Shown: one piece after another, positions 1 to 53,113 of the stretch | Position numbering within the stretch: position 1 is the first letter of the stretch | Layout: each line of letters begins with the position of its first letter | Source of the DNA: Bdellovibrio sp. ZAP7 | GTDB taxonomy: Bacteria > Bdellovibrionota > Bdellovibrionia > Bdellovibrionales > Bdellovibrionaceae | NCBI RefSeq assembly: GCF_006874645.1 | Contig: NZ_CP030082.1 | Location: 1-64,000, forward strand | DNA: 64,000 nt | Direction: 5' to 3' | Notes under the pieces: generated by a model | The model's input: only the letters and a program-made list of their open reading frames with translations | What the model was told of the DNA's origin: nothing | Database searches by the model: none | Made by a program: the position numbers and the translations under genes

Positions 1-1419
1 ATGGAGTTAAACGCTTCTTTCTGGACATTGATTAAGACAAAAATGAAAAGTCGTAATGATAACAATAAGTTATTAGATACGTGGCTAGACCCTATTGAAT
101 ATATCAGTACTGGGGGCTCTTTTGAGCGTCCCAAATTGATACTTGGAGTACCCAACGCCCTCCACCAATATTTTGTGATCGAGAACCTTCAGGATAAGAT
201 TTACACTGAGATTTCGGATACTTACAAGAGACCTTTCGAAGTTGAGTTTAATGTTACGGGCGCCAAAGTGAATACTCATATTGAAACTGTGAACACCGTG
301 GAGGAGACTCCTTCTCACCAAGGTTCAGAGGTTCTTCAGGCACAACTTTCACGTGCTCAGGCTATTCAGACTACTCAACCTAGGTCCAGCGATACGTTAA
401 ATGTGGATTTGACCTTTTCGACCTTCGTCGTGGGTAAAAATTCTGAATTCGCTCATGCAGCTTGTTTCAACGTAGCCAGGAATCCTGGAGCGGACGATTA
501 CAATCCTCTCTATATATATGGACCCGTTGGGATGGGTAAAACCCATCTTTTACACGCAGCTGGAAATCACATTCGTGAACAATTTCCGCAACTTAGAATC
601 ACTTACTTATCGGCTGAACGCTTTATGAATGAGTGCATTTCGGCGATTCGTCGTCACGAAATGGATAAGTTCCGCCAAAAATACCGCGAAAACTCCGACA
701 TCCTATTAGTGGATGATGTGCAGTTCATCGCGCGTGGTGAGGCTGTTCAAGAAGAGTTCTTCCACACAGTGAATAGCTTCATCGACACTCGTAAGCAGGT
801 TATCCTGGCCAGTGATCGTATGCCGAAGGATATCCACGGACTTGAAGATCGCAGTCGTACCCGTCTTGAACGTGGTTTGATCGCAGACATCACCATGCCT
901 GATTTGGAAACTCGTATCGCGATCCTTAGATATAAAGCTGAAAAGTTTAATATGCGACTGCCTGAAGATGTTGTTCATCACATCGCACGCATCTCTAAAC
1001 GGTCCATCAGAGAGCTGGAAGGCAACCTTAAGAAGGTGAAGATGTTCTCTGAGCTTCAAGGTCTGCCGATTGATGGCGAGCTTGTGAAGCGCATCCTTTC
1101 ACACCATGAAACTCAATCCACTATCTCTGTTGAAGAGATTATGAAAATGACAGCGGATCACTTTAAAGTACGTGTTTTGGATCTAAAATCCTCCACGCGC
1201 GCCAAGCCAATTGTCGTTCCACGTCAAATCTCGATGTATTTGATTAAGAAGTTTTTGGACAAATCACTCGTGGATATCGGCAAAGCTTTCGGCGGAAAAG
1301 ATCACACGACGGTGATGAACGCGCTGGATCGAGTGAAATCTCTACAGGCGACGGATCAAGATATCGCAAAAGATATCGAGGATTTAGAGCAGAGAATCCA
1401 CAATATCACAGGGGTGTGA
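1..1419 (+). CDS. dnaA: Chromosomal replication initiator DnaA
   Basis: Initiator ATPase that binds DnaA boxes at oriC and opens the duplex. The 472 residues show an N-terminal domain, a poorly conserved linker (about 90-130), an AAA+ core with Walker A GPVGMGKT near residue 174 and Walker B ILLVDDVQF near 234, and a C-terminal helix-turn-helix ending in the DnaA signature GGKDHTTVMNA near 432. Length is typical. The ATG is the first base of the window, so its promoter and ribosome binding site are not visible. It is followed by a 235-bp intergenic region with DnaA boxes and then dnaN, the standard origin arrangement. Confidence 0.97.
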   Translation: MELNASFWTLIKTKMKSRNDNNKLLDTWLDPIEYISTGGSFERPKLILGVPNALHQYFVIENLQDKIYTEISDTYKRPFEVEFNVTGAKVNTHIETVNTVEETPSHQGSEVLQAQLSRAQAIQTTQPRSSDTLNVDLTFSTFVVGKNSEFAHAACFNVARNPGADDYNPLYIYGPVGMGKTHLLHAAGNHIREQFPQLRITYLSAERFMNECISAIRRHEMDKFRQKYRENSDILLVDDVQFIARGEAVQEEFFHTVNSFIDTRKQVILASDRMPKDIHGLEDRSRTRLERGLIADITMPDLETRIAILRYKAEKFNMRLPEDVVHHIARISKRSIRELEGNLKKVKMFSELQGLPIDGELVKRILSHHETQSTISVEEIMKMTADHFKVRVLDLKSSTRAKPIVVPRQISMYLIKKFLDKSLVDIGKAFGGKDHTTVMNALDRVKSLQATDQDIAKDIEDLEQRIHNITGV

Positions 1420-31954: not shown

Positions 31955-32128
31955 GTCTTATCGACTCTTTCACTCAATCAAGGGGTTAATTTAACCTCAA
32001 TCTAAAAACGAATATGTGGGCTTTGGTCCAGTCAGTTTGGTGCAAATTTCGAACAATTTTGAGATGTACTCATAGAAATCCTAATGAGTGTTCCCTATGA
32101 CTCCGATAAGTACTTTAGGAGCCATAAT

Positions 32129-33979
32129 ATGAACGTACGGGTTTTGGTTTTAGGTATTGCAGCTTTGATTCTATCAGCCTGTTCTTTTGACGTGAACCTC
32201 CTTGGAAACAAGGGGGCTGGAGCACTTCCCTCTGATGGAGACGGACTGTTCCCTTTGGGGGAACAAAAAGCCTATTTTGGTGGTTCAGTCGCGACGGCCG
32301 TGGACTCTTTGGGAAATGTTTATGTCGCAGATCCATCTGTTGGTGGGTCCATCACTGTCCTGAATGCGCAGATGGCGACCGTGCGCGTGTTGGCGTCCAC
32401 GGGATCAGCAGATGGCCAAGTCAGCAGTCCAAATGGAATGGTCATCGATTCAAACGATAACGTTTATGTTAATGATTACGGAAATTTTCGAATTCAAAAA
32501 TTCGACTCTAGCGGAACCTTTGTTCGCAAATGGGGCGTCAGTGGCGGCGACGTTAATAATCCGTTTGAGTTCAATGTAATGTCGGGAATTGCGATTGATT
32601 CCAATGACAATATCTATGTTCTGAATATGAATGGTCCCAATCATGGGATGGAAGTTCGTGTCTTTGATACAGATGGAAACTTGGTTCGTAAGTGGGGCCA
32701 GTGGGATGACGGTGTCACCTGCCCGAGCTGTGACGGTTATTTTGATTCCATATATGGTATTGCAATCGACAAGGATGATTACGTCTATGTCGGCGATTAT
32801 ATGAAAGGAAGAATTCAAAAATTTGATTCGCTGGGCGTGCACCAGTTAAACATCGGATCGCCGGGTTCGGGTGCGGGTCAAATTCCAAACGTTTTTATTG
32901 GAATTGCCGTAGCGTCTAACGGAACTATTTATGTATCTCAGGAAAGTTCTCCGCCAAGGATTCAAAAGTTTTCTGCAGCGGGAACATATGTTTCTGAGCT
33001 TAGCAGTGCCGGTTCAAGTTCAAGTCAATTCGTAAGACCCTGGGCGATCGGCTTTGATCGACAAGGCAATATTTTGGTTTCGGATTTAACGAATGGTTTT
33101 GCGGGTGCAATCAAGAAATTTTCTGCGAGCGAAACCTTCATTGCTGCGATTCAGTCTGGCGGAAACGGTAATGGACAACTTAATAAACCCTTTGCAGTGG
33201 CAATATCCAAGGCTGGATTCGTTGTCGGCGCAGATAGTGGAAATTACCGAGTTGCCAAATGGGATGCTGACGGGAATTGGCTTTTGAATTTTGGCAGTCA
33301 GGGCTGGGGCAACGGTCAATTCACTATGCCCGTCTCCATCGGTGCGGATGATTTGGGAAATATTTACGTCTTGGACTACGATCAACCTAATACCAGAATT
33401 AAAGTTCAAAAATTTTCCAACTCAGGAACTTTCATTAGGGAGTGGGATGGATCTGCGGGCGCTGGAACTACTATCACTTCATCCTATGGCCTGGCGGTTG
33501 CCGGGAATGGTGATGTGTATGTTGCCGATGTCAGCCATGCGAAAATTCAAAAATTTGATACCGACGGAAACCATATTGCAGATTTAGGAGTGGGTACTCT
33601 TGCGATGCCAGTCAACATTGCTCTGGGTTTGAATAGCAACTTATTCGTGACAGATGGTACCGGAAAGGTTTTTGAACTTGATACCACGTCGGGTGCAAAA
33701 CTTGGTGAATTTGGTTCTGGTCTGTTCACTTTCCCATGGGGTATCACTGTCAGTCCGGTGACGGGTGATGTTTATGTTGGCGATTTGGTTGCAAATACCA
33801 TCAAACAATTTAGTGCTGCGGGAATTTTAGGGTCGATCAGCTGGGGTGGCTTTGGATTTGCGTCAGGAAAATTTTCTGCGTTGGCAGGCATGGCTTCAGA
33901 TGAAAATGGATTTATCTATACCGCTGACAACAGCAACTCCCGTATTCAAAAATTCAATGGCCTGGGAGTTGCGTTCTAA
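32129..33979 (+). CDS. NHL-repeat beta-propeller lipoprotein
   Basis: A 616-residue lipoprotein. I start at the ATG at 32129 (TTAGGAG upstream), giving a signal with Cys 18 (LILSAC). The rest is a long series of NHL-type repeats, with recurring GNIYVSD/NVYVNDY and RIQKFDSSGTFV units, enough for about two beta-propellers. Such exported propellers bind peptides, polysaccharides or other envelope proteins. It abuts a convergent SDR gene with no gap. Confidence 0.85.
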   Translation: MNVRVLVLGIAALILSACSFDVNLLGNKGAGALPSDGDGLFPLGEQKAYFGGSVATAVDSLGNVYVADPSVGGSITVLNAQMATVRVLASTGSADGQVSSPNGMVIDSNDNVYVNDYGNFRIQKFDSSGTFVRKWGVSGGDVNNPFEFNVMSGIAIDSNDNIYVLNMNGPNHGMEVRVFDTDGNLVRKWGQWDDGVTCPSCDGYFDSIYGIAIDKDDYVYVGDYMKGRIQKFDSLGVHQLNIGSPGSGAGQIPNVFIGIAVASNGTIYVSQESSPPRIQKFSAAGTYVSELSSAGSSSSQFVRPWAIGFDRQGNILVSDLTNGFAGAIKKFSASETFIAAIQSGGNGNGQLNKPFAVAISKAGFVVGADSGNYRVAKWDADGNWLLNFGSQGWGNGQFTMPVSIGADDLGNIYVLDYDQPNTRIKVQKFSNSGTFIREWDGSAGAGTTITSSYGLAVAGNGDVYVADVSHAKIQKFDTDGNHIADLGVGTLAMPVNIALGLNSNLFVTDGTGKVFELDTTSGAKLGEFGSGLFTFPWGITVSPVTGDVYVGDLVANTIKQFSAAGILGSISWGGFGFASGKFSALAGMASDENGFIYTADNSNSRIQKFNGLGVAF

Positions 33980-36435: not shown

Positions 36436-36735
36436 TTAGTTCAATTTTTTAACACGAATTTTGTAGTTATCAATTTTCTTCTTAAGAGTGTTGCGATTGA
36501 TGCCAAGCATCTGAGCAGTTTTAACTTGGTTGCCATTGTAGGCACGTAGAGCAAGCTCAAGTAGCGGTTTTTCAACTTGTTCGATTACAACATTGTACAA
36601 ACCGTTCAATTCTACTTGCGCTTCTTTTTGTTGAGCAAAAAGAACTTCAAGTTTGCTTTTAACAAGCTTTTCCAAGCTTACAGACTGAAGGTTAGCGACA
36701 AAAAGATTATCAGAACTGTTAAGGTTCGGCGTCAT
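36436..36735 (-). CDS. fis: Fis-type DNA-binding protein
   Basis: A 99-residue protein whose last 50 residues are a Fis-type helix-turn-helix (ALRAYNGNQVKTAQMLGINR, then NTLKKKIDNYKI), with an N-terminal region of similar length to E. coli Fis. It bends DNA and regulates transcription. GGGAG lies before the ATG. It is between queE and dnaB on one strand. It could also be an NtrC-type C-terminal domain, but no AAA+ part is present. Confidence 0.85.
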   Translation of the reverse strand: MTPNLNSSDNLFVANLQSVSLEKLVKSKLEVLFAQQKEAQVELNGLYNVVIEQVEKPLLELALRAYNGNQVKTAQMLGINRNTLKKKIDNYKIRVKKLN

Positions 36736-49265: not shown

Positions 49266-50729
49266 TTGCCCACTTCTTTTTTTGCGCATCCAAAGTCTGA
49301 TTTTAAATCAGCGCAATATACAGCAATCATCAGCGATCTGCATCTAACTGAAGCAGAGCCGGTGAACTTGCGTTTTCCATTATGGAAAAAATTTAAGACT
49401 CGTCAGTTCTTCTATGATGATGTTTTTGAAACCTTTCTCAGACATATCGAACAGCGTGCGCAGGGAGCTCCTGTTGAGCTGATTTTGAATGGCGACATTT
49501 TCGATTTTGACAGCGTGATGAATTTGCCAGAGGAACCAGTGTTTCGCATCAGCTGGCTTGAGAAGCATCGCGGTCTTTATCCGCGCGCGGAAAGATCTCG
49601 CCATAAAATCGAAGTGATTCTGCGCGATCACATGCCATTTGTCAGATCTTTGAAAGAGTTTATTCTTCGCGGAAATCGCGCGGTGTTTGTCATCGGAAAT
49701 CATGATTTGGAACTTCACTTTTTGGAAGTTCAACATGAGATCATGAGGCATTTGAATTTGCCTGAAGATAAGCGCGAAGAAGTCCGCTTTGTCGAATGGT
49801 TCTATATCAGCAATCAGGACACTTTGATTGAACATGGTAATCAGTACGACCCGTACTGTATGTGCGAAGATCCGGTGAATCCGTTTGTTCGTGGTTACAA
49901 CTATGTGGCGCTAAAACTTCCATTCGGAAATTTGGCTTGTCGTTATATTTCCAATGGTATGGGGTTCTTTAATCCCCATGTCGACACGAACTATATTATG
50001 ACTCTGAAAGAGTACATTTTGTTCTTTTTCAAATATATCTGGAGAGCACAACCGGGCTTAGTATTCACTTGGTTCTGGGGATCGCTTGCGACTCTGGTGC
50101 ATTCTTTCTTTGACCGTCTTTCAGCGCCGATACGCAATCCATTAAAGATTGAGGACCGTATCGAGATTATTGCTGAAAAATCCAATGCAGAACCGCGTAT
50201 GGTTCGAGAAATGAAGGAACTTTTTGTCGCACCTGCTGCAAGTGAGCCGATGCTTCTGGCTCGAGAGCTTTGGCTTGATCGCGCCTTTATTGTGTTCATT
50301 GCGTTCTTTTTGATCTTTGAATTGATGGTTTTTGTTCGCTCGGTTTATGAAATTTCATTTTTTTGGGCATTTATCCCTCTGTTTTTGCTGTTGCCGTTCT
50401 TTTTGTTCTACAGCAAATCGGTCACATCCTTGGTTTCCAGTTACAAAGAACCGGATGATCGGGTTTTGGCTATGGCGAGTGCCATCACTAAGGTGAAACG
50501 AATTGTTTACGGGCATACGCACCACACAAGACATGAAATTATCGGTTCCGTGGAACACCTAAACAGTGGATGCTGGTCTCCGGCATTCCTGGATGTTGAG
50601 TGTACAAAACCGATCGATCAAAAAACCTTTGTTTGGATCTCTCCAGGAGAACATAATTCTCGTCAGGCAGAGCTTTGTAAGTTTGTGGATGGAACCTCTG
50701 AAGTAATGACAGGTAATCGCGGCGCTTAA
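49266..50729 (+). CDS. Calcineurin-like metallophosphoesterase with membrane segment
   Basis: A 487-residue protein. Metal motifs of the family are in order: ISDLHLTEAEP near 19, LNGDIFDFDS near 75, VIGNHDLELHF near 143 and YGHTHHTRHE near 416. Two hydrophobic helices near 340-385 (DRAFIVFIAFFLIFELMVFV, and WAFIPLFLLLPFFLFYSKS) are inserted between the third and fourth motifs. The family includes LpxH-type UDP-diacylglucosamine hydrolases, but the helices are unlike LpxH. TTG start with GGAGG; only 29 bp separate it from the divergent murD start. Confidence 0.85.
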   Translation: MPTSFFAHPKSDFKSAQYTAIISDLHLTEAEPVNLRFPLWKKFKTRQFFYDDVFETFLRHIEQRAQGAPVELILNGDIFDFDSVMNLPEEPVFRISWLEKHRGLYPRAERSRHKIEVILRDHMPFVRSLKEFILRGNRAVFVIGNHDLELHFLEVQHEIMRHLNLPEDKREEVRFVEWFYISNQDTLIEHGNQYDPYCMCEDPVNPFVRGYNYVALKLPFGNLACRYISNGMGFFNPHVDTNYIMTLKEYILFFFKYIWRAQPGLVFTWFWGSLATLVHSFFDRLSAPIRNPLKIEDRIEIIAEKSNAEPRMVREMKELFVAPAASEPMLLARELWLDRAFIVFIAFFLIFELMVFVRSVYEISFFWAFIPLFLLLPFFLFYSKSVTSLVSSYKEPDDRVLAMASAITKVKRIVYGHTHHTRHEIIGSVEHLNSGCWSPAFLDVECTKPIDQKTFVWISPGEHNSRQAELCKFVDGTSEVMTGNRGA

Positions 50730-50834
50730 CCGCTCAGCATTATTGCGCCGCAAAAAAGATTTCCCATTGTCAATTATAGGTCCCTTATGCAAACCTTTTA
50801 CTGTTCAATTTTTAACTAAGGATGGAGAGTCATC

Positions 50835-51029
50835 ATGGCAGAAGTACTTGTTGTAACTAGCAAAGTGAAAAAACTTATCAAAGAAAAAGGTGGCATGAAC
50901 ACTTCCGCTGAAACTATCGACGTTCTCAGCAAAGCTATCGAGCAACTTTGCCTTAAAGGCGTAGAGTCTGCAAAAGCAGACGGCCGTAAAACAGTTATGG
51001 CTCGCGATATCGTTATCGATCACCTTTAA
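50835..51029 (+). CDS. Bacterial histone-fold protein (HBb type)
   Basis: A 64-residue basic protein that is a single histone fold: an N-terminal helix (SKVKKLIKEKGG), the long central helix (SAETIDVLSKAIEQLCLKGVE) and a C-terminal helix, with the loop ADGRKTVMARDIVIDHL that matches the RxTV motif of archaeal histones. It lacks tails. It corresponds to the abundant histone (Bd0055 in B. bacteriovorus HD100) described as an unusual DNA-edge-binding chromatin protein. GGAGAG precedes the ATG. It is monocistronic, between a metallophosphoesterase gene and ligA. Confidence 0.95.
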   Translation: MAEVLVVTSKVKKLIKEKGGMNTSAETIDVLSKAIEQLCLKGVESAKADGRKTVMARDIVIDHL

Positions 51030-51053
51030 TTTTTAATTAAAGATGATACGAAG

Positions 51054-51081
51054 AAAACCCACAGCGAAAACTGTGGGTTTT
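51054..51081. terminator. Bidirectional terminator shared by the histone gene and ligA
   Basis: AAAACCCACAG-cgaaaa-CTGTGGGTTTT is a perfect 11-bp stem. T-runs follow on both strands, so it can end the histone transcript (plus) and ligA (minus). Confidence 0.94.
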
Positions 51082-51088
51082 TTATTTT

Positions 51089-53113
<2,025 letters not shown>

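Follow-up and report, generated by a model that had tools for sequence, protein, structure and literature searches.

The 64,000 bp stretch of DNA analysed here (the window) carries an intact ORF of 64 codons with an ATG start, and its product (MAEVLVVTSKVKKLIKEKGGMNTSAETIDVLSKAIEQLCLKGVESAKADGRKTVMARDIVIDHL, translated from 50835-51029 on the plus strand) is the HBb-type histone that was already described and crystallised in publications of 2023-2024. Two copies of the protein most likely pair as a handshake dimer and bind the DNA backbone without sequence preference; contacts would be made by the paired L1-L2 loops and by the first part of helix alpha1. Each dimer would bend the DNA by about 90 degrees, in the manner of HU, without wrapping it. 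Production of the histone is probably high while the cell grows inside its prey, and the protein would coat or bend the chromosome genome-wide and thereby help to compact it. Taken as a whole, we regard this account of an abundant, non-specific, DNA-bending and non-wrapping dimer as likely, based on the sequence and on analogy with the orthologue of Bdellovibrio bacteriovorus HD100.

A sequence-only reading of this DNA had recognised a 64-residue histone fold and proposed a residue comparison with Bd0055. The comparison supports the reading, as 63 of 64 residues are identical to Bd0055/HBb over the full length and the sole change is Q20G. When the histone was searched against all PDB chains with phmmer, it matched 8FVX (E = 1.9e-34) and 8CMP (E = 2.2e-34). 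The Pfam family PF00808 (CBFD_NFYB_HMF) was detected above its curated cut-off (23.1 vs 21.4 bits, E = 9.4e-5). The score for NF043032 (NCBIfam archaea_histone) was below the cut-off (31.6 vs 50 bits), thus the protein is related to the archaeal-type histones without being one of them. The full-length identity places it with the HBb-type bacterial dimer histones of the alpha3 group, and the RKTxxxD motif (as RKTVMARD), the RD clamp and the alpha1 lysines typical of HBb-type dimer histones are all present. Using the histone as query, we detected no second histone gene in its own genome. A Shine-Dalgarno-like GGAG lies directly 5′ of the ATG, and GGATGGAGAG in the ribosome-binding region is mostly kept within the genus. 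A phage origin of the gene was considered and rejected, given that no match was found among phage records.

Table 1. Positions of the histone gene, its flanking elements and related genes. Coordinates are those of the window unless another sequence is named.
Feature	Position	Strand	Basis or remark
Histone CDS, Bd0055/HBb orthologue (Q20G)	50835..51029	+	ORF, PDB-chain match, Pfam, order-wide conservation
Ribosome-binding region, AAGGATGGAGAG then spacer	50820..50834	+	sequence
Conserved upstream DNA block, TGCGSCGCA ... TTGTCA-N12/13-TATGCAAACCTTTTA	50744..50806	+	genus comparison; presumed promoter/regulatory
Upstream co-directional calcineurin-like phosphoesterase gene	49266..50729	+	ends 105 bp 5′ of the histone ATG
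Hairpin terminator with T-rich tail, between histone gene and convergent ligA	51052..51083	+	folding, shuffles
Downstream convergent neighbour ligA, NAD-dependent DNA ligase	51089..53080	-	near the histone gene order-wide
dnaA, marker of the origin region	1..1419	+	begins at window base 1
Bd3044-type (ZZ) histone, G006	2954877-2955410	-	Bd3044 search
Bd3044-type (ZZ) histone, L176	874-1410		Bd3044 search

The histone is conserved well beyond the genus. Of 60 genomes sampled from the order, the own genome included, 59 have an HBb-type copy with 72-100% identity, and all 60 have a histone match of some kind. The one genome without an HBb-type copy (G031), whose assembly is 72% complete, has only a longer match of the Bd3044 type. 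In a sample of the phylum, a histone match was obtained for 104 of 114 genomes; five of the ten that lack one belong to a single genus (g40) and three to a single family (f12). Among congeners, protein identity is 89-100% for the histone, compared with 70-97% for ligA and 77-99% for the upstream gene. The fourfold and synonymous sites of the histone's neighbours are near saturation within the genus, and in most comparisons the fourfold sites of the histone gene are better conserved than theirs, as expected from its biased codons.

We evaluated residue conservation across 86 distinct HBb-type orthologues. Eleven DNA-contact residues have been published for HBb: T8, S9, K10, K12, K16, N22, T23, S24, K52, T53 and R57 (PMC11317129). 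All 11 are at least 97% conserved, vs 20 of the 53 other positions (Fisher p = 1e-4, to be taken as indicative because the sequences are related). Invariant positions include the RD clamp (R51/D58), D49, K12 and K16, as well as T8, S9 and K10. C39 and H63 are also invariant, and neither is among the published contacts. Position 20 lies outside the published DNA contacts, and almost every orthologue carries G, E, Q or D there (the copy at 49361 in G006 has Q20); given this variability, Q20G is unremarkable. The archaeal tetramer positions F45, H48 and L61 are S45, A48 and I61 in the window histone, and F45 and H48 occur in none of the 86 orthologues. Conservation is also high in the N-terminal tail (V4 to V6).

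Dimer state, DNA binding, bending, nucleoid abundance and probable essentiality are all taken from publications on the HD100 orthologue; we infer that the histone of the window species behaves as that protein does and has its own promoter. The structure of HBb has been solved with and without DNA (PDB 8FVX, 8FW7, 8CMP, 9EZZ and 9F0E), and SEC-MALS is reported to show a stable dimer and no tetramer (PMC11317129). Hu 2024 reported a second contact surface in the co-crystal at T8/S9/K10, compaction in tethered particle motion (TPM) similar to that by HU, constrained supercoils and enhanced circularisation, and an 84-degree DNA bend in simulation, and argued that bending is by separate dimers (PMC11317129). 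Non-specific, genome-wide binding is also reported for HBb, and DAP-seq data are given (PMC11317129). Later reviews by the same groups take bending as the mode (PMC12701072; PMC11390915).

The main competing explanation is that of Hocher 2023, where dimers bound end-on and side by side form a nucleohistone filament around straight DNA. That paper describes the first HBb-DNA crystal (8FW7) with straight, fully sheathed DNA, AUC with more than 60 dimers loading on 147 bp, a lack of FRET between the DNA ends and a very abundant protein (PMC10627809), and the conserved N-terminal tail of the 86 orthologues fits this model as well. Against it are the TPM, circularisation and topology assays together with the second interface, whose three residues are invariant, and the adoption of bending in the later literature. 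In addition, FRET behaviour was unchanged after removal of the four tail residues (PMC10627809). We consider the sheath unlikely and bending considerably the more probable mode. The order-wide invariance of both DNA-contact interfaces favours bending without proving it. The bending contacts do not explain the conserved tail, which might instead reflect the tail exchange of the sheath model; thus, sequence conservation does not cleanly separate the two models. The sequence-only reading stated that the homologue coats DNA instead of wrapping it. The absence of wrapping is common to both models and stands, but coating of straight DNA is disputed by the bending data (PMC11317129).

Codon usage indicates that the histone is very likely highly expressed in the window species. 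Its codon adaptation, calculated with the ribosomal-protein operon of its own genome as reference, is 0.755, which is within the range of ribosomal proteins and fifth among 63 window genes. None of 5000 random recodings based on window codon usage reached this value. The HD100 orthologue ranks 12th of 2,125 proteins in attack-phase proteomics and comes first in abundance within the nucleoid fraction (PMC10627809). Its mRNA is reported as mainly growth-phase (PMC10627809; PMC11317129). The codon usage and the published proteomics therefore agree with the high expression proposed from the sequence alone.

That reading had also attributed to the gene a strong terminator and no operon partner. The terminator was confirmed: the hairpin has 13 pairs and a folding energy of -19.5 kcal/mol (z = -4.95), and none of 200 shuffled sequences folded as well. 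Similar AAACCCAC...GTGGGTTT hairpins occur in most congeners. Given the A-rich left flank of the hairpin, it may serve ligA, which lies within about 3 kb of the histone gene in 55 of the 60 order genomes, as well as the histone gene. The lack of an operon partner is unproven. The phosphoesterase gene is on the same strand, adjoins the histone gene in most of the order, and we detected no terminator in the 105 bp gap between them.

The gap does contain a conserved DNA block with the boxes TGCGSCGCA, TTGTCA and TATGCAAACC. All 24 genomes of the genus have the block, as do two further genera, with a single occurrence in each genome that invariably precedes the histone gene. With one match in its own genome, no common regulon was found. 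No promoter was recognised in 50600-51200 by a scan for the sigma-70 consensus, the spacing from TTGTCA to TATGCA is only 12-13 nt, and none of the known promoter classes fits the block. We also considered a FliA promoter, but the attack-phase motif TTAAG-N16-CCGATA (PMC3627812) was not seen at the histone gene. The leader showed no RNA structure (z = +1.31) and only sub-threshold Rfam matches. The idea that the block is exceptionally conserved was rejected by a control, in which it ranked fifth among 17 comparable upstream regions of the window. Given this rank, our default view is that the block is an ordinary, well-preserved promoter region. It seems doubtful that it is instead a dedicated control site that ties histone output to growth phase, yet the block is a defined stretch in which growth-phase control of the histone gene can be sought.

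Because the conserved block lies in the gap, a separate histone promoter is likely but not proven. Co-transcription with the phosphoesterase gene, for which the shared strand, the short gap free of a detected terminator and the neighbourhood kept across most of the order would argue, is in our view quite improbable: the gap is filled by DNA with promoter-like behaviour, the codons of the histone gene are those typical of high expression, and the phosphoesterase gene is missing beside the histone gene in some members of the order (G051, L029 and L030).

As for chromosomal position, the start of dnaA is base 1 of a single contig of 4,123,562 bp and the histone gene is about 50 kb away. In all 41 genomes with both genes on one contig, the distance is 42-65 kb (median 48.7), so the origin proximity pointed out from the sequence alone is real. 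The accompanying argument, that the gene profits from high dosage near the origin, does not follow. When the window genes were mapped to 12 relatives, nearly all genes of the origin-proximal block of about 60 kb were in the same order. Since the whole block is syntenic, the position is old as well as real, yet it provides no evidence for dosage selection on the histone. Selection of the origin-near place, with extra copies during filamentous growth raising histone output, is consistent with the constant distance and with the reported growth-phase expression peak (PMC10627809; PMC11317129). We nevertheless hold it to be improbable, as low-expression genes of the block keep their order too, so that general synteny accounts for the place of the histone gene, which stands out by no other measure, and none of the papers searched tests the idea.

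Several other features of this block were observed. The kept gene order runs from dnaA past gatCAB across the whole order. A DnaA box, TTATCCACA, is located at 1521 in the dnaA-dnaN gap, and among the upstream stretches of the window the 100 bp before dnaN (1555-1654) show the highest conservation in the genus; the two may be part of oriC. The block also encodes a Fis-family protein (36436-36735, minus strand), another possible nucleoid protein, with 95-100% identity in the genus. A 631-aa NHL-repeat (beta-propeller) protein (32084-33979, plus strand) was not matched at the equivalent place in the 12 relatives, and its gene looks like a lineage-specific insertion.

The least plausible alternative, to which we give practically no credence, is that the gene is in fact the antisense ORF at 50805-51023 (minus strand), with a histone frame that arose by chance; although this ORF is longer than the histone ORF (72 codons), it is a shadow whose frame is interrupted by stops in congeners, unlike the histone frame, which has 72-100% identity over the order and matches solved structures.

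HD100 encodes a second histone, Bd3044, a 178-aa protein with a Cys-rich N-terminal region that is classed as a low-expression ZZ histone (PMC11390915). When we searched the window species' genome with Bd3044, the only match was the HBb-type gene itself. Full-length relatives of Bd3044 are present in 7 of the 24 genus genomes and absent from the other 17, the own genome among them. A review states that both histone genes are essential in HD100 (PMC11318664), and in the accessible part of the primary paper bd0055 is the sole gene for which attempts at deletion are described (PMC10627809). As the HBb-type histone works without a ZZ histone in the window species, the ZZ histone is dispensable at the genus level, whatever holds in HD100.

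Histones were long thought to be absent from bacteria, and they matter all the more as they appear essential in Bdellovibrio. For the HBb type, the structure, the cellular location and a probable essentiality are published. The published Bdellovibrio histone differs from the window protein by a single residue and the window thus adds little to it; the minor additions are the conservation data, the missing ZZ histone and the conserved upstream block.

Compared with known systems, the window histone is closest to HBb/Bd0055 of B. bacteriovorus HD100 (Q6MRM1), with which it shares its length, both neighbours, the origin-proximal place and all but one of 64 residues (G for Q at 20); the coding DNA has diverged to about 50% identity at fourfold sites. 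Bd3044 has a bacterial-dimer-like histone fold in common with it (28 of 57 residues identical), but differs in its length and Cys-rich N-terminus. The FtF histone HLp of Leptospira perolatii (PDB 9QT0) shares the alpha3 character with the short third helix, although the match is weak (E = 0.003) and HLp tetramers wrap about 60 bp (PMC12701072). The archaeal histones HMfA and HMfB share the histone fold and the RKT...D motif in L2. The sequence-only reading had called the protein close to archaeal histones, and this holds for the RKTVMARD motif of the L2 loop but not for the protein as a whole, with E values of 0.06-0.35 for HMfA/HMfB (0.35 for HMfB) and 1.5e-4 for HmvA. HMfA and HMfB have longer helices and form wrapping hypernucleosomes, and the window histone is without their tetramer residues; PMC10627809 names the tetramer-forming residues that allow wrapping in archaeal and eukaryotic nucleosomal histones.
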